52,645 bases of DNA from Caldithrix sp. (lineage in GTDB: Bacteria; KSB1; UBA2214; DYKH01): positions 8,133-60,777 of the forward strand of contig DYKH01000015.1 in assembly GCA_020722685.1 (NCBI GenBank), written 5' to 3'. The position numbers and the translations under genes are program-made. The number at the start of each line of letters is the position of its first letter. The first letter of the stretch is position 1. The notes beneath the pieces were generated by a model, which saw nothing but the letters and a program-made list of their open reading frames with translations, was not told the origin of the DNA and ran no database searches. This document shows, piece by piece, positions 43,965 to 52,249 of this stretch.

Positions 43965-43994
43965 TTGACATTCTTGATTATTTGATTAAATTTG
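43965..43994 (+). promoter_or_regulatory. Promoter of the ilv-leu-cimA operon
   Basis: TTGACA (43965-43970), 16 nt, TAAATTTG (43987-43994), equal to TTG-N19-TAnnTTTG with no mismatch. Transcription would begin at about 44001, leaving a leader of about 450 nt before ilvB. Confidence 0.7.
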
Positions 43995-44024
43995 CCATCG
44001 TAGTTCTGAAGCAAGTTCACACAG

Positions 44025-44255
44025 ATGGCTTTGACGGATTTATTGATGAACGCATTTTCCCAATCAAATAGCACGAGCGGAAAGGCTGGTTGCCCAATTG
44101 TTGAGGCAACAGAAGCCGTGCGGGGAAATTGCGATCATTCCTCAGTGCCGGAAAGGCTACTCCTGCCCCTACGTTCTCGTCTATCCCGCAGCCTTGTGCG
44201 GATAGAGAGACTACCTATCATCATTCTAAGCCTCTTGCCCTTGTTGCTAAGCTAA
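44025..44255 (+). CDS. Candidate leader peptide of the ilv-leu operon (Ile/Leu-rich end)
   Basis: A frame of 76 codons from an ATG about 25 nt after the predicted transcription start. Its last 12 codons read IIILSLLPLLLS: three Ile and six Leu (44217-44252), exactly the products of the operon, ending in TAA at 44253. An internal GTG at 44196 would give a 19-residue peptide of classical leader size, but it has no clear Shine-Dalgarno. The rest of the 76 codons is unremarkable. A hairpin (CTATC...GATAG, 44181-44205) precedes the Ile/Leu run and could pause polymerase. The overlap of these codons with the downstream RNA structure supports a regulatory role; translation is not proven. Confidence 0.5.
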   Translation: MALTDLLMNAFSQSNSTSGKAGCPIVEATEAVRGNCDHSSVPERLLLPLRSRLSRSLVRIERLPIIILSLLPLLLS

Positions 44256-44360
44256 CAAACTCTGGTGCAAGAGGTACTCCGAACTAACAATCCAATTCAA
44301 GACAACGAAATCGTTTCCAAATTAGGTCATCTTACCGTTAGTTAACTCTTGCGCCAGTGT
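44231..44360 (+). promoter_or_regulatory. Candidate ilv-leu attenuator: two mutually exclusive hairpins
   Basis: Structure 1: CCTCTTGC (44231-44238, within the Leu codons) pairs perfectly with GCAAGAGG (44267-44274); TTGTT/AACAA pair inside. Structure 2: ACTCTGGTGCAAGAG (44259-44273) pairs with CTCTTGCGCCAGTGT (44346-44360) over 14 of 15 positions including one G-U, extended inside by AACTAAC (44282-44288) with GTTAGTT (44337-44343). Both use GCAAGAG, so only one can form. Ribosomes stalled on the Ile/Leu codons would block structure 1. No U-run follows either hairpin, so termination may need Rho, or control may be translational. Confidence 0.55.
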
Positions 44361-44454
44361 AGGCTCATGCTGTTGATAGAATGCAGACTAACGCTTCAAA
44401 CTGATGTTTTCGGTTTCAGGAGACAGGAATCATATTACTCAGGAAGGCTTTCAC

Positions 44455-46176
44455 ATGACTGGTGCAGAAATGATCGTCCACGCGCTCAAGTGCGAAGGAG
44501 TGCGCGCCTTATTTGGCTACCCCGGAGGCGCAGTCATTGACATTTTCGACAAGCTGTACGGCTCGGGTGTGCCGTTCTATCTGACGCGGCACGAGCAGGG
44601 CGCCGCGCACGCTGCCGATGGTTTTGCGCGGGCGTCGGGCGAAGTGGGCGTGTGCATTGCCACCTCCGGGCCTGGCGCCACCAATTTAGTGACCGGCCTG
44701 GCAACCGCCCACATGGATTCCATTCCGTTGGTGGCCATCACCGGCCAAGTGGCAACCCATTTGATCGGCAATGATGCCTTTCAAGAGGCGGATATCGTTG
44801 GTATCAGTCGCTCAATCACCAAGCATAACTACTTGGTCAAGGACGTGGATGAATTGCCCAAAATCCTGAAATCGGCATTCTACATCGCTCGCAGCGGTCG
44901 CCCCGGGCCTGTGTTGGTGGATATACCCAAAGATATTCAGCAGAGCAACACCGATGTTCCGTATCCGGAAAGTGTGGAAATTCGCAGCTACAAACCCACC
45001 CTAAAAGGGCATTCGCCGCAAATTCAGAAAGTGGCGGAGGCAATCGCCGACAGCACCCGACCGGTGATCTTTGCTGGCGGCGGCGTCATCGCCGGCGGCG
45101 CCAGCTCCGAGCTACGGGAGTTGGCGGCGAAAATCGATGCACCGGTCACCACGTCGCTGTTGGGTTTGGGCGCCTTCCCGGAGACCTCTCCGCATGCCCT
45201 GAAAATGCTCGGTATGCACGGCACCGAGTATGCGAATTATGCCATTCAGGAAGCTGATTTGCTATTGGCTATCGGTGTTCGTTTTGATGACCGGGTCACC
45301 GGTAAAGTGAGCAAGTTCGCCCCCAAGGCGCACATCGTTCACATTGACATCGATCCGACGACCATTCGCAAAAACGTCAAGGTCAACATTCCGGTCGTGG
45401 GCGACGTGAAGCAAGTGCTGTTGGAGCTGAATCAGATCGTGACGCCCCAAAAGCACCCCGAGTGGATGGGACGTATACTAGAGTGGAAGCAAAATCATCC
45501 TCTCAAATACGGCGAAAATGGCAAGATTCAGCCGCAATACGTCATCGAACAAGTCGCCGAGCTGACCAGGCATAACGCCATCATCACCACGGAGGTCGGG
45601 CAAAACCAAATGTGGACAGCGCAGTTCTTCAATTTCGAAGAACCGAGGACCTTCCTTTCTTCCGGCGGACTCGGAACGATGGGTTACGGTTTTCCTGCCG
45701 CCATCGGGGCACAAGTGGCGCGCCCGGACAAGGTCGTCATCGATATTGCCGGCGACGGTAGCATCCAGATGAACATTCAAGAGTTGGCCACGGCCGTGCT
45801 CTATAATCTCCCGGTGAAGATCATTATTCTGAATAACCATTCACTGGGTATGGTGCGGCAGTGGCAAGCCATTTTCTATGCTCGCAGGTTTTCCGGAGTT
45901 TGCTTAAAACAGGACGCAGCCTGTCCGCCGCAGTGCGATGGCTCCGGCAAAGATTGTCCGCCGGTCTATGTGCCAAACTTTTGCAAGTTGGCCGAGGCTT
46001 ATGGAGCCACCGGTCTCCATGCCAGCAAGCCGGAAGAAGTCAGACCTTGTTTGGAAAAAGCGCTCGCCACGCCCGGACCGGTCATCGCCGAGTTTGAAAT
46101 CGACAAGGAGGAGAACGTTTTTCCCATGGTGCCGGCCGGCGCATCGTTGAATGAAATGATAAGAGGAATGGCCTGA
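44455..46176 (+). CDS. ilvB: Acetolactate synthase large (catalytic) subunit
   Basis: Condenses two pyruvates, or pyruvate with 2-oxobutyrate, in the first shared step of Val/Leu and Ile synthesis; uses ThDP, Mg and FAD. It has 573 residues from the ATG at 44455, which has GGAAGG 7 nt upstream; the frame to 44404 is an unsupported extension. Motifs: LFGYPGGAVIDIFDKL, the ThDP-activating Glu in TRHEQGAAHAADGFARASG, and the ThDP-binding segment GDGSIQMNIQELATAVLYN followed by NNHSLGMVRQWQ. A Cys-rich insert (CLKQDAACPPQCDGSGKDCP, about residues 482-502) is unusual. One-base overlap with ilvH (TGATG). Confidence 0.95.
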   Translation: MTGAEMIVHALKCEGVRALFGYPGGAVIDIFDKLYGSGVPFYLTRHEQGAAHAADGFARASGEVGVCIATSGPGATNLVTGLATAHMDSIPLVAITGQVATHLIGNDAFQEADIVGISRSITKHNYLVKDVDELPKILKSAFYIARSGRPGPVLVDIPKDIQQSNTDVPYPESVEIRSYKPTLKGHSPQIQKVAEAIADSTRPVIFAGGGVIAGGASSELRELAAKIDAPVTTSLLGLGAFPETSPHALKMLGMHGTEYANYAIQEADLLLAIGVRFDDRVTGKVSKFAPKAHIVHIDIDPTTIRKNVKVNIPVVGDVKQVLLELNQIVTPQKHPEWMGRILEWKQNHPLKYGENGKIQPQYVIEQVAELTRHNAIITTEVGQNQMWTAQFFNFEEPRTFLSSGGLGTMGYGFPAAIGAQVARPDKVVIDIAGDGSIQMNIQELATAVLYNLPVKIIILNNHSLGMVRQWQAIFYARRFSGVCLKQDAACPPQCDGSGKDCPPVYVPNFCKLAEAYGATGLHASKPEEVRPCLEKALATPGPVIAEFEIDKEENVFPMVPAGASLNEMIRGMA

Positions 46177-46664
46177 TGCGACACATTATCAATCTGGAGG
46201 TCGAAAACAATTCCGGCGTCTTGGCGCGCATCGCGGGATTGTTCAGCGCCCGCGGCTTCAACATCGAGAGCATTACCGCCGGAAAAGCGGTGACCACCGA
46301 CACGGCGCACATCACGCTGGTGGTGCGCGGCGACGATTGGGTCATCGAGCAGGTGAACAAGCAGTTGAACAAGCTGATCGACGTCATCCGCGTGACCGAC
46401 GTGACCAAGAACGATTTCGTCAATCGCGAGCTGCTATTGGTCAAGGTGGCCTGTCCGCCGCCGAAACGCAGCGAGGTTTCCCAGATCGTCAACATCTTTC
46501 GCGCCAAGGTGGTCGACATCAGCAATCGTTCTATGACCATGGAGCTGACCGGCAGCGAGCCAAAAATCAATGCCTTTCTGGAAACGGTCAAAACTTTTGG
46601 CATCAAGGAAATCGCTCGCACCGGGCCCATCGCCATGCTGCGGGACTCCAATGGAAAACTGTAG
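46176..46664 (+). CDS. ilvH: Acetolactate synthase small (regulatory) subunit
   Basis: A 162-residue protein, the usual length. The ACT domain starts at residue 2: HIINLEVENNSGVLARIAGL, FSARGFNIESITAGK, then ITLVVRGDDWVIEQVNKQLN and NKLIDVIRVTDVT. The C-terminal ALS small-subunit domain includes RELLLVKV and SEVSQIVNIFRAKVVDIS. It binds valine for feedback inhibition and activates IlvB. It overlaps ilvB by one base, so the two subunits are translationally coupled. Confidence 0.95.
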   Translation: MRHIINLEVENNSGVLARIAGLFSARGFNIESITAGKAVTTDTAHITLVVRGDDWVIEQVNKQLNKLIDVIRVTDVTKNDFVNRELLLVKVACPPPKRSEVSQIVNIFRAKVVDISNRSMTMELTGSEPKINAFLETVKTFGIKEIARTGPIAMLRDSNGKL

Positions 46665-46792: not shown

Positions 46793-47782
46793 ATGAGACT
46801 CTACTACGACAAAGACGCCGACTTGAACCTTTTGAAAGGCAAAAAGATCGCCATCTTCGGCTACGGCAGCCAAGGACACGCCCATGCTCTCAACCTAAAG
46901 GAAAGCGGCATGGACGTGGTCATTGGACTGAAAGAGGGCAGTAAAAGCAAGGCAAAAGCCGAAGCTGCGGGTTTGAACGTATTTCCCAATGACAAAGCCG
47001 CCAAGGCTGCGGACATTATGATGATGTTGGTGCCGGACGTCATCCAGCCGGAGGTTTACGAAAAGGACATTTTGCCCAACCTCAAGGCTGGCGATGTGCT
47101 GGCCTTTGCGCACGGCTTCAATATTCACTATAACCAGATCGTCCCGCCGGCAAATATCGACGTCATTATGGTGGCGCCCAAGAGTCCGGGCCACTTGCTG
47201 CGCCGGCAATATTCGGAAGGCAAGGGCGTTCCCAACCTTATTGCCGTCTACCAAGACTATTCCGGCAAGGCAAAGGACATTGCCCTGGCCTATTCCAAGG
47301 GCATCGGCGGAACGCGGGCGGGCGTCATCGAGACGACCTTTAAGGAAGAAACCGAAACCGATCTTTTCGGTGAACAGGCCGTGTTGTGCGGGGGCGTCAC
47401 GGAGCTGATTCGCGCCGGCTTTCAGACTTTGGTGGATGCAGGCTACCAGCCGGAGATCGCTTACTTTGAATGCCTGCACGAAATGAAGCTGATCGTCGAT
47501 CTCATCTATGAAGGTGGACTCTCGGGCATGTACTATTCCGTCAGCGATACGGCCGAGTACGGCGGATTGACCAAAGGTCCGGTGGTCATTGGCGACGAAG
47601 CCAAAAAAGCCATGCAGAAACTGTTGCTGGACATCCAGACCGGCGCTTTTGCGACTGAATGGATTTTGGAAAACCAGGCCAAGGCGCCCAAGTTCCAAGC
47701 GCTGCGGCGTATGCTGCAAGGCTCGCAAATCGAAAAGGTGGGCTCCGAGCTGCGCGGCATGATGAGCTGGATCAAAAAGTAG
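46793..47782 (+). CDS. ilvC: Ketol-acid reductoisomerase
   Basis: NADPH/Mg-dependent isomerase and reductase that converts acetolactate (or acetohydroxybutyrate) to the dihydroxy acid, the second step of Val and Ile synthesis. The 329-residue length fits class I (short) enzymes. Rossmann motif [20 protein letters not shown]; the coenzyme specificity loop follows strand 2 ([16 protein letters not shown]); the knotted C-terminal domain has [38 protein letters not shown] and [10 protein letters not shown]. The start is the ATG at 46793, with AAGGAGG 5 nt upstream. Confidence 0.97.
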
Positions 47783-48003
47783 AGCAGGTCGCAAGTTTCA
47801 AGCGGCAAGTTGCAAGTCTTAGGTCGCCTATTGCAGGCAGTGGGTTCCAGGCGACTTTTCCTAACCAGGTGCAGAGGAAAGCAATACTTTGCCCAACCGC
47901 AAGAGTAGGGTTAGGTATTGTGGTGGGAACTCTCGGCCTGCGACCTGTAATCTACAACCTGAGACCAAAAGCCTGCAACTTGCTACAAAACAACGAGGTC
48001 GTT
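47783..48003. other. 221-bp gap between ilvC and leuA with inverted GCAAGTTGCA tracts
   Basis: GGCAAGTTGCAAGTC near 47805 and CTGCAACTTGCTAC near 47980 are imperfect inverted copies of a low-complexity motif. The leuA frame stays open upstream through this gap but has no coding character. GAGGT 4-5 nt before 48004 is the leuA ribosome-binding site. Confidence 0.45.
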
Positions 48004-49569
48004 ATGGATGCGAATCGCGTTCTCATATTTGATACCACCCTGCGCGATGGTGAACAATCCCCGGGCGCCAGCCTGAGCGTTGCGGACAAACTGGCCATCG
48101 CTCACCAACTGGCGCGACTGCGCGTCGACGTGATCGAGGCGGGCTTTCCGGTGTCCTCGAATGTGCAGTTTGAGGCCACCCAGTTGATTGCCCACGAGGT
48201 GGAAGGCCCAAGCATTGCAGCTTTGGCTCGCTGCGTCGATCTGGACATTGATCGGGCGGGCGAGGCGCTCAAAGGCGCCCAAAAGCCGCGCATCCACACG
48301 TTTGTGGCCACCTCCAAGATTCACCTGGAGAAAAAGTTCAGGAAATCCGAGGAGGAGGTTCTGGAGATGGCCATCGCTGGCGTCAAGCGCGCGAGAAAGT
48401 GGTGTGATGACGTAGAATTCTCGCCGGAAGATTCCGCCCGCACCGGCAAAGAGTTCCTCTTTCGCGTAGTGGAAGCAGCGATCAAAGCGGGTGCCACGGT
48501 CATCAATATCCCGGACACCGTTGGCTATGCCAGCCCGGAGGAGTTCGGAAGTCTCATCTGCGAGCTGCGCAATACGGTGCCGAATATCGACAAAGCAATC
48601 TTGAGTGTCCATTGTCATAATGATCTTGGCTTGGCGGTGGCCAATACTCTGTCGGCCATCAAAAATGGAGCGCAGCAGGCCGAAGTCACTATCAATGGCG
48701 TTGGCGAGCGCGCCGGCAATGCGGCCTTGGAAGAAGTCGTCATGGCCCTCAAGACGCGGCATAACTTTTATGGCAAATTCACCAACGTGGACACGCGGGA
48801 AATCGCCCGCACCAGCCGCATGGTCAGCAATCTGATGGGTATGCCGGTTCAGCCAAATAAAGCCGTGGTGGGCGCCAACGCCTTTGCTCATGAGAGCGGC
48901 ATCCATCAGGACGCGGTCATCAAGGATGCGAAGACTTACGAGATCATGAATCCCCATGACATCGGTCTGGACTCCAACAAGATCGTCTTGGGCCGGCATT
49001 CTGGCCGGCACGGCTTGAAGCAGCGGCTGCATGAAATGAGCTACGATCTGAGTCAAGAAGAGTTGAATCATGTTTATGAAAGATTCCTGGAAATTGCCGA
49101 CAAGAAGAAAGAAGTCTTTGATGAAGATTTGATGGCGCTGGTCAGCGATGAAGCGTTGGCCATCAAAGAAGCCTATCAGCTCGATTACTTTCACATCCTG
49201 AGCGGCAATCGCGCCATCCCCACTGCGACGGTCGGCCTGAGACATGGCGAAGAAGTGCTACAAGAAGCCGCGGTCGGCGACGGGCCGGTCGACGCCGCGT
49301 ACAAAGCCATTGACAAGATCGTAAACTTGTCGGTTGAGCTTACGGATTACTCTTTGCACGGAGTGACGGGTGGGAAAAATGCTTTGGGCGAAGTCGTTGT
49401 CCGCATTGCGCAGAACGGGAAAAAGTTTATGGGCCGTGGTGCCAGCACCGATGTCATCGAGGCCAGTATTCGGGCTTATATCAATGCCATTAATCGCATG
49501 CTGGTTATCAATGAAAAGGCAGAGTTGGAGAAGGCCCAAGTAGAGGATTCCATTGAAAACAAATTATAA
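48004..49569 (+). CDS. leuA: 2-isopropylmalate synthase
   Basis: Condenses acetyl-CoA with 2-oxoisovalerate, the first committed step to leucine. The start is the ATG at 48004 ([20 protein letters not shown]); the frame extends upstream to 47659 inside ilvC and the intergenic tract and is not used. It has 521 residues, close to the usual 510-520. The TIM-barrel catalytic domain has [14 protein letters not shown] and the metal ligands in [29 protein letters not shown] follows. The C-terminal LeuA allosteric domain (about residues 400-515) starts near the [18 protein letters not shown] segment, so leucine feedback is likely. It overlaps leuB by 17 bp. Confidence 0.96.
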
Positions 49570-50647
49570 AATCGCCGTTTTGCCTGGTGACGGCATCGGC
49601 CCCGAGGTCGTCCAGGAAGCAGTCAAAGTCTTGCAAACGGTGGCCAAATTTTCCGGCATGCAGGTTCAGCTTGAATACGCAGCGGTGGGCGGCCAAGCCA
49701 TGGAACAGTTCGAAGAGCCGCTGCCCCAGTCGACCCTGGAATTGTGCAAATCTTGCGATGCCGTATTGTTGGGCGCCATCGGCCATCCCAAGTGGGATCA
49801 CTTGCCATCGGAGAAGCGGCTAGAGCGCGGTCTGCTCGGACTTAGAGAAGGCCTGAGACTGTTTGCCAATTTGCGTCCGGCCAAGGTGCACGCGAGCCTG
49901 GCGGAAGCTTCCAGTTTAAAAAAGGAAGTGGTGGAGAACGTCGACGTTCTGATCGTGCGTGAGTTGACGGGAGGCGTCTATTTCGGCCGGCCGCGCGGTA
50001 TTGATGACCGGGATGGCGGTCGCGGTTATAACACCATGGTCTACCATCGCCATGAAGTGGAGCGCATCGCCAGAGTGGCTTTCGAGGCGGCCAGAAAACG
50101 TAATAGGAGAGTGACTTCTGTTGATAAGGCCAATGTTCTGGAAGTCTCCCAGTTTTGGCGTAAAGTGGTGATGGAGGTCGCCCGGGAATTCCCGGACGTT
50201 CAGCTCGATCACATGTACGTGGACAATTGCGCCATGCAGTTGATTCGCTGGCCCAAGCAATTCGATGTCATCGTCACCAGCAATTTGTTCGGCGACATCC
50301 TGAGCGATGAAGCCTCCATGCTGACCGGGTCTCTGGGCATGCTGCCTTCCGCAAGCTTGGGTGCGCAATACGCCATGTATGAGCCGGTGCATGGTTCGGC
50401 GCCGGACATTGCCGGGCAAAGCAAGGCCAACCCCATCGCCACCATTGCTTCAGTGGCCATGATGCTCCGCTACTCCCTGAACCGGCCCGCAGAGGCGGAT
50501 GCAGTGGATAAGGCCATCACCCGAGCTTTAGAATCAGGCTACCGAACCACGGACGTCGCCACCAGTGGGACAACGATCGTTTCTACCCAAGAGATGGGAG
50601 ATAGAATTGCAGAGAACGTGGGAGCTCTTTTGGCTGAAAGCCGCTAA
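49553..50647 (+). CDS. leuB: 3-isopropylmalate dehydrogenase
   Basis: NAD-dependent oxidative decarboxylation of 3-isopropylmalate in leucine synthesis. It has 364 residues. Motifs: [68 protein letters not shown] and the metal and substrate loop [20 protein letters not shown], then [13 protein letters not shown]. The start is TTG at 49553, with AGAGGA 5 nt before it, inside the end of leuA. LeuCD, which supplies its substrate, is not in the window. Confidence 0.96.
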
Positions 50648-50671: not shown

Positions 50672-52249
50672 ATGTCGAGCCACCTAATCATTTATGACAC
50701 AACTCTGCGGGATGGAGCGCAGAGCGAAGGCATCTCGTTCTCCGTCGACGACAAGCTAAAGATCGCCCGCCGTCTCGATGAGTTCGGAGTGGATTACATC
50801 GAGGGCGGGTGGCCTGGCTCAAATCCCAAGGACATGGAATTCTTCCAGCGCGCCAGCCGGATGGAGTGGAGCAATGCCAAAATATGCGCATTTGGCAGCA
50901 CGCGGCGGGTAAAAAGCAAGGTCAGCGAGGATGAAAATATCGAACTACTATTGGCCGCCGAGACGCCGGCGGTGACCATTTTCGGCAAATCCTGGGATTT
51001 GCACGTCCACGACGGCTTGCGCGCCTCGCTGGAGCAAAATCTGGAAATCATTCGCGACTCGGTGGCCTATCTCAAGGCGCATGGCAAGGAAGTGATCTAC
51101 GATGCCGAGCATTATTTCGACGGTTTTGAAGCCAATCCGGAATACGCGATGCAAACCCTCGCGGCGGCGCAGGATGCGGGTGCTGACTATTTGGTCCTGT
51201 GCGACACCAACGGTGGAACTTTGACCAGCAGGCTCATCGAGATCATTTGCACGACTCTGGAGCAAAAATTCAAGGTGCCTCTGGGAATTCACGCGCACAA
51301 CGACAGCGACTTAGCGGTGGCCAATTCCATTGCGGCCATCGAGAAAGGATTTGTGCAGGTGCAGGGAACCGTCAACGGCTACGGCGAACGCTGCGGAAAT
51401 GCCAATTTGTGCTCCGTCATCGCAAACGTGGCCTTGAAGACAAAGGTCAAGTTGGGAAGCAAAGTCAAGCTGCGGGAGCTGACGACGCTTTCCCGTTATG
51501 TAAGTGAGATCGCCAATCTCGTGCATCGCGAAGAGTCACCCTATGTCGGCAACAGCGCTTTTGCTCATAAGGGCGGCATACACGTCAGCGCCATCCGCCG
51601 CAATCGCCGGACGTATGAGCACATCGATCCGGCGTTGGTGGGAAATCGGCAGCGGGTGCTGGTTTCCGATCAATCGGGACAAAGCAATATTCTCTCCAAG
51701 GCCGAGGAACAAGGCTTGGACCTCTCCAGCAACAAGGAAGAGGTGAAAAAGATTGTGGATCACTTGAAGGAGCTGGAGCATCTTGGCTATCAGTTCGAGG
51801 GCGCGGATGGCTCCTTTGAGGTGCTGGTGAAAAAATCCATTGGCGCCTACGTGCCCTTTTTCGATCTGTTGAGCGCTCGGGCCATCATCGACAAAAAAGA
51901 AAACGGCACCCTCAATTCCGAGGCGGTGCTGAAAATCCGCGTCGACGGCGTCATCGAGCACACTGCCGCCGAGGGTCACGGTCCTGTCGATGCTTTGGAC
52001 AAAGCCCTGCGCAAGGCGTTGGAAAAGTTCTACCCCTCGCTCAAGAAACTGCGTTTAGTGGATTACAAAGTGCGGGTGCTCAACAGCGAGCAGGGGACGG
52101 CAGCCAAAGTGCGCGTCTTTATCGAATCGGGGGATGAGGACAGCGTTTGGGGTACAGTGGGAGTTTCGGAGAATATCATTGAAGCCAGTTGGCAAGCACT
52201 GGTGGACAGCATTAGCTACAAATTGATGAAAGATAGTAAGGGAGTCTGA
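50672..52249 (+). CDS. cimA: Citramalate synthase
   Basis: Condenses pyruvate with acetyl-CoA to citramalate, giving 2-oxobutyrate for isoleucine without threonine deaminase. A 525-residue LeuA-superfamily protein: [20 protein letters not shown], the [10 protein letters not shown] loop and FGSTRR, both typical of the CimA branch rather than LeuA, then [28 protein letters not shown] and [15 protein letters not shown]. The C-terminal allosteric domain spans about 405-520. Shine-Dalgarno GCGAGGAG lies upstream of the ATG. The last biosynthetic gene of the operon in this window. Confidence 0.93.

Follow-up and report, generated by a model that had tools for sequence, protein, structure and literature searches.

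The leu and ilv attenuators of enterobacteria consist of a leader peptide, alternative hairpins and a U-run terminator. In the actinobacterial LEU element, a run of leucine codons pairs with the Shine-Dalgarno sequence of the regulated gene. The leu attenuator of Salmonella carries three CUA codons, and swapping these for CUG has been reported to lower its sensitivity (PMC1183508). Leader ORFs containing codons for Ile, Val and Leu have been described ahead of ilvB in Actinobacteria, where they overlap candidate terminator hairpins with poly-U (Seliverstov 2005, PMC1262725). For actinobacterial cys leaders without terminators the same paper suggests Rho, the candidate sites being poorly conserved, and it cites tna of E. 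coli as having a Rho-gated leader ORF. The orf34 leader of Salmonella speF possesses arginine codons and alternative RNA structures, with sequestration of the ribosome binding site (RBS) and RNase G also described (PMC6386406), and upstream ORFs have been linked to Rho termination in this and another paper (PMC12121999, PMC6386406). A paper of 2010 regarded leader-peptide systems as known only from Proteobacteria and Actinobacteria, besides ermC and its own cases in Firmicutes (PMC2965389).

Region 44000-44454 of the window (the whole stretch of DNA analysed, 52,645 nt from an uncultured bacterium) is probably a ribosome-mediated attenuator, one that would make transcription of the downstream operon, of gene order ilvBNC-leuAB-cimA, depend on how well the tRNAs for Leu, and also those for Ile and Val, are charged. 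It resembles the enterobacterial leu/ilv attenuators in its BCAA-rich leader ORF, its mutually exclusive hairpins with a common segment and its CUA Leu codons. Unlike them, it has a leader of 42-69 codons (the range across those leaders where an ATG start was chosen), an additional helix at the start region, no conserved terminator hairpin or U-run and no match in Rfam, and because the terminator is lacking it is not classed as a leu/ilv attenuator proper. The search of Rfam gave no leader match at the gathering score, the one match to a snoRNA family (E 0.7) being far below the cut-off. With the ilvB leaders of Actinobacteria it shares an ORF with Ile, Val and Leu codons, whereas their poly-U terminators, as described, have no conserved equivalent here (PMC1262725). 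The sequence-only reading of this DNA knew of no such leader in this lineage, a statement that nothing among the matches listed from the open-licence literature contradicts. The features of the region and operon are as follows.

43965..43992, + strand: sigma-70-like promoter, TTGACA-N16-TAAATT, 53 nt 5' of the leader ATG
44046..44255, + strand: leader ORF ending ...RLPIIILSLLPLLLS*, 69 codons with an ATG start, including 13 Leu (6 CUA), 5 Ile and 4 Val codons
44046..44061, + strand: 5' arm of helix HP0, covering the leader start region
44123..44138, + strand: 3' arm of HP0, in the middle of the leader ORF
44231..44238, + strand: segment 1 (CCTCTTGC), 5' arm of hairpin HP1, within the last Leu codons
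44264..44274, + strand: segment 2 (GGTGCAAGAGG), common to HP1 and hairpin HP2
44277..44342, + strand: interior of HP2, rich in C and poor in G over 17 leaders, a putative Rho-loading region
44343..44360, + strand: segment 3, 3' arm of HP2
44455..46176, + strand: ilvB, acetolactate synthase large subunit (TIGR00118), first gene of the operon
46176..46664, + strand: ilvN, acetolactate synthase small subunit (TIGR00119)
46793..47782, + strand: ilvC (TIGR00465)
48004..49569, + strand: leuA (TIGR00973), start re-set from the profile match
49553..50647, + strand: leuB (TIGR00169)
50672..52249, + strand: cimA (TIGR00977)

Elsewhere in the 52,645 nt, nothing convincing was found among leader-like homopeptide ORFs. 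In the 221-nt gap between ilvC and leuA (47783-48003), words resembling CAAGTTGCAAG/CTTGC were seen by eye to be repeated and inverted, in the manner of REP-type elements.

An IlvB search supplied 80 loci (the best 80 of 587), the closest among them being 77% (L001) and 73% (L002, whose record is labelled candidate division KSB1) identical. Starting from these loci, 147 related genomes were searched, of which 110 gave some IlvB match; IlvB of 69-80% identity was present at 18 loci (L081-L098) and as a split match in genome G008. Leaders were read at 15 of these loci (L081-L088, L090-L096) and in genomes G008 (L143), G007 (L145), G055 (L141) and G041 (L142). L089 was dropped, its contig starting inside ilvB, and L096, a near copy of L094, was excluded from the statistics. 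A leader of this kind was identified in all 19 readable close relatives, ahead of ilvB in 17 and ahead of ilvD in two. G007 was picked out by the exact motif and so counts as a biased case; leaving it aside gives 18/18.

Both the promoter and the frame ending PIIILSLLPLLLS proposed from the sequence alone were recovered, the former as TTGACA-N16-TAAATT at 43965-43992 and the latter with its stop codon at 44255. A scan of 19 leaders showed a TTGAC[ACT] hexamer together with a -10-like hexamer (at least four of six positions) 5' of the leader in 14, the matches of L082, L085 and L092 being weak or distant; the pair was absent from L083 (which offers 41 nt upstream only), L088, L095, L143 and L145. 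For the leader of the window an alternative ATG at 44025 would give 76 codons. A strong Shine-Dalgarno sequence is absent at both ATGs, and ATG 44046 was taken as the start because of the position of HP0 and similar starts in the relatives. The leader frame of L088 has no in-frame ATG.

The frame and its Leu and Ile codons are retained in 19/19 readable close relatives. Over 19 leaders (the window and 18 relatives), 7-11 of the last 14 codons of the leader frame are for Leu, Ile or Val, compared with 0-6 when the other frames are read. In all 19 leaders scored, 7-14 nt separate the stop codon from segment 2. Leu codons total 229 in these 19 leaders, Ile codons 108 and Val codons 85, which bears on the earlier label of an Ile/Leu sensor: both amino acids are represented, and Leu, as the dominant one, should head the label, followed by Ile and Val. 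Of the 229 Leu codons in the leaders 56 are CUA, as against 15 of 600 in 15 ilvB genes (Fisher p ~5e-21); for the window alone, the figures are 6/13 in the leader and 12/214 in its own operon (p ~1e-4). Stalling of the ribosome on a small molecule by the hydrophobic nascent peptide, rather than by slow decoding of Leu codons, is very unlikely. The peptide ends of the ilvB leaders are indeed alike, with Leu-Leu at segment 1 followed by further Leu, but outside the LL imposed by segment 1 they differ (LSLLPLLLS, INLLLRSLR, LGLLGILG), and the enrichment of CUA points to sensing at the level of the codon.

The end of the leader ORF falls between two mutually exclusive hairpins, HP1 and HP2, to which GCAAGAGG is common. 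HP1 (44231-44238/44267-44274) forms 8/8 pairs with the Leu codons as one arm, as the sequence-only reading had it. HP2 (44259-44276/44343-44360) is 83% complementary; the 14 of 15 pairs proposed for it hold, on a count by eye, for 44259-44273 with 44346-44360, and the inner 7-bp stem suggested for it is seen in the minimum-energy fold. An additional long-range helix, HP0 (44046-44061/44123-44138), had been missed. When the 520 nt upstream were shuffled with dinucleotides preserved, 2/2000 shuffles matched the score of the segment 1-segment 2-segment 3 triple in the window.

The three helices were examined by a partner-swap test, in which each 5' arm was paired with the 3' region of its own leader and with those of other species, and the duplex energies were compared (50000 permutations). 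Own partners were favoured for HP0 (-21.1 own, -15.3 swapped; 0/50000, n=18, L088 being left out as its leader has no ATG), HP1 (-18.3 and -16.0; 8/50000, n=19) and HP2 (-22.2 and -17.6; 0/50000, n=19), whereas two displaced control pairings were flat (8557/50000 and 44789/50000); as the sequences are related, these permutation counts are not strict probabilities. The observed own-minus-swapped differences of -5.82 (HP0), -2.33 (HP1) and -4.64 (HP2) each exceeded all 40 controls with shuffled 3' letters, whose means were -0.30, -0.45 and 0.10 and whose extremes were -2.22, -1.82 and -0.86, respectively. HP1 thus passes narrowly, its -2.33 standing against a shuffled minimum of -1.82. Individual leaders vary: HP2 is unconvincing in L087 and bulged in L081 and L083, and HP0 is weak in L081, L082, L085 and L087.

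Column-wise covariation, assessed on a MAFFT alignment of 17 leaders (A1), was weaker than hoped. The sole helix that RNAalifold recovered was HP1 (covariation term -0.17). For HP1, 99.3% of cells are paired and there is little variation, the single double change being equalled by 24/500 shuffles. For HP2, 81.8% of cells are paired (6/500 shuffles as high) and its covariation score was reached by 8/500 shuffles, its double changes not rising above the shuffles. On compensatory change in both hairpins, the comparison proposed together with the original reading, own partners beat swapped ones, while the column-wise signal is modest.

The strongest single argument for these helices comes from the two leaders ahead of ilvD (G055 and G041). 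Their arms resemble AATAACCTC / GAGGTTATTCC / GGAATAACCTC instead of the CCTCTTGC / GCAAGAGG / CTCTTGC of the ilvB leaders, to which they are unrelated in sequence, and yet the order of the arms is the same, the spacing is similar, the frame is BCAA-rich and each has its own HP0. This suggests that selection keeps the layout and not the sequence. That chance hairpins have merely met a chance hydrophobic frame is scarcely credible: the fold of the single leader is weakly stable (z -1.96; 3/100 shuffles equally stable), as chance would have it, but the leader is conserved in 19/19 readable close relatives with the arm sequences replaced in two. An interpretation as an analogous stalled-ribosome BCAA sensor is supported by the comparison of relatives. 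What this comparison shows is the leader frame with its codons, all three helices, a narrow gap between the stop codon and segment 2, and that no terminator is conserved.

Outside these close relatives, no such leader was seen directly 5' of ilvB in L099-L110 (IlvB ~55-63% identical), the first five of which (L099-L103) were inspected by eye and all 12 by an insensitive generic scan; at two of them, L101 and L103, ilvB follows an ilvD-like gene, and the region looked at was the one directly ahead of ilvB. The generic scan for the three segments, taken over the best 45 of 101 upstream regions, showed no triple with a BCAA-rich leader among 79 loci outside the clade, its sensitivity being such that the correct triple was shown in only 13/20 known leaders. 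These 79 loci comprise 67 of the 78 in L003-L080 together with L099-L110, 11 having been excluded, five as archaeal and six because their upstream sequence was short or missing. An exact-pattern search of the 147 relatives matched 36 genomes, with the ilv leader in many close ones and scattered sites elsewhere; a reversed control pattern also gave scattered matches.

Like the ilv leader, the trp and his attenuators of the same clade have ORFs rich in the amino acid of the pathway; unlike it, those examined carry intrinsic terminators with U-runs. Leaders upstream of trpE (L146-L153) encode WWW or WWWW peptides followed by two intrinsic terminators in tandem. Attenuators of this classical kind were found at 8/8 trpE loci over the family cut-off (seven scanned, L146 by eye), with tandem terminators of -16.5 to -25.3 kcal/mol in 7/7 leaders scanned. 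His-rich leader ORFs (for example MYYCRIHHHHHHHTYVT) were identified at 11 of 19 hisG loci (L168-L177, L180), and a hairpin with a U-run was seen by eye in 8/8 displayed. A further Arg/His-rich match, in L182, was discounted. Terminators are thus readily detected in this lineage when a leader has one.

The occurrence of such terminators in the same clade would favour a classical attenuator whose intrinsic terminator has been missed, through an imperfect U-tract or with HP1 or HP2 acting as a U-less terminator, as would the terminator-like hairpins with a partial U-run in L082, L084 and L141. Of these, the hairpin of L084 alone is stable after segment 3 (z -3.86). However, nothing conserved, such as a 3:4 hairpin, was detected 3' of segment 3 (swap test 9044/20000, n=16), and terminator candidates occur in only 5/20 ilv leaders (-7.7 to -12.4 kcal/mol), unlike in sequence and in place, so that a missed terminator is unlikely. 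The view that the leader lacks a U-run terminator holds in the sense that none is conserved across the leaders.

As to the readout, the sequence-only reading had left Rho access and translation of ilvB side by side. A translational readout, in which the structures gate ribosome access to ilvB and premature termination is secondary to lost translation, has a proposed precedent in toiL-topAI of E. coli (PMC12121999). Here the RBS of the first gene (last 28 nt before the gene) showed no specific pairing to the 130 nt that follow the stop codon of the leader (14256/20000, n=19), and segment 3 lies anywhere from 50 to 232 nt ahead of the gene (16 leaders). On account of these two results the ilvB half of the proposal is disfavoured, and such gating is quite unlikely.

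Rho access is the better candidate, and there is about an even chance that Rho is the terminator with HP2 protecting the transcript. It is favoured because of the lack of a conserved terminator or RBS signal, the C-rich loop of HP2 and the presence of rho, which scored over the family cut-off in 19/19 genomes of relatives searched. Averaged over 17 leaders, 20 nt contain 7.24 C and 1.24 G at +10 from segment 2, 5.71 and 0.76 at +20, and 5.53 and 1.47 at +30, although any loop left unpaired would likewise be poor in G. The stretch of the window itself is less marked than most (14 C and 6 G in 55 nt). Equally skewed 55-nt windows make up a mean of 4.6% of each leader's own 520-nt region, 9.2% for the window and 30% in the worst case, L083, where the skew does not stand out. 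Beside normal Rho, 10 of the 19 genomes were seen to encode a second and shorter Rho-like protein, scoring 342-425 bits, under the rho cut-off, with a match that lacks the first 37-131 profile positions.

Which state of the leader is ON, and what role HP0 plays, we infer as follows. When amino acids are ample, the ribosome would reach the stop codon and depart, after which HP1 would form and capture segment 2. With segment 2 taken, HP2 could not form, the C-rich RNA would therefore stay open and untranslated and transcription would end before ilvB. When Leu is scarce, the ribosome would stall on the CUA, CUC, UUG and Ile codons over segment 1, leaving segment 2 free for segment 3; HP2 would then close over the C-rich stretch, shielding the Rho loading region while the ribosome is stalled, and transcription would go on. 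HP0 is predicted to bury the leader start region once the RNA of the middle of the ORF has emerged, and probably limits translation of the leader to a ribosome that loads just behind RNA polymerase. Like the Rho-gated leader ORFs of tna and orf34 as described (PMC1262725, PMC6386406), this leader would let its own translation decide the action of Rho. It differs from speF orf34, as far as that description goes, in its BCAA codons and in a switch hairpin that encloses a C-rich stretch (PMC6386406). The complete reading is tentative, with a little less than an even chance of being right: a three-helix BCAA attenuator whose antiterminator folds away a Rho loading site and whose HP0 limits translation to the pioneer ribosome, that is, a Rho-gated ilv switch beside trp and his attenuators with intrinsic terminators.

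A poorly studied lineage thus appears to use leader-peptide systems for its trp, his and BCAA operons, and the mechanism would therefore be older, or more often reinvented, than the cases known in 2010 suggested. The preference for CUA as Leu codon, as in Salmonella, could be tested as an instance of convergent codon choice. The occurrence in one clade of an ilv leader without a terminator and of trp and his leaders that bear them is a natural setting in which to study under what circumstances Rho takes the place of an intrinsic terminator.
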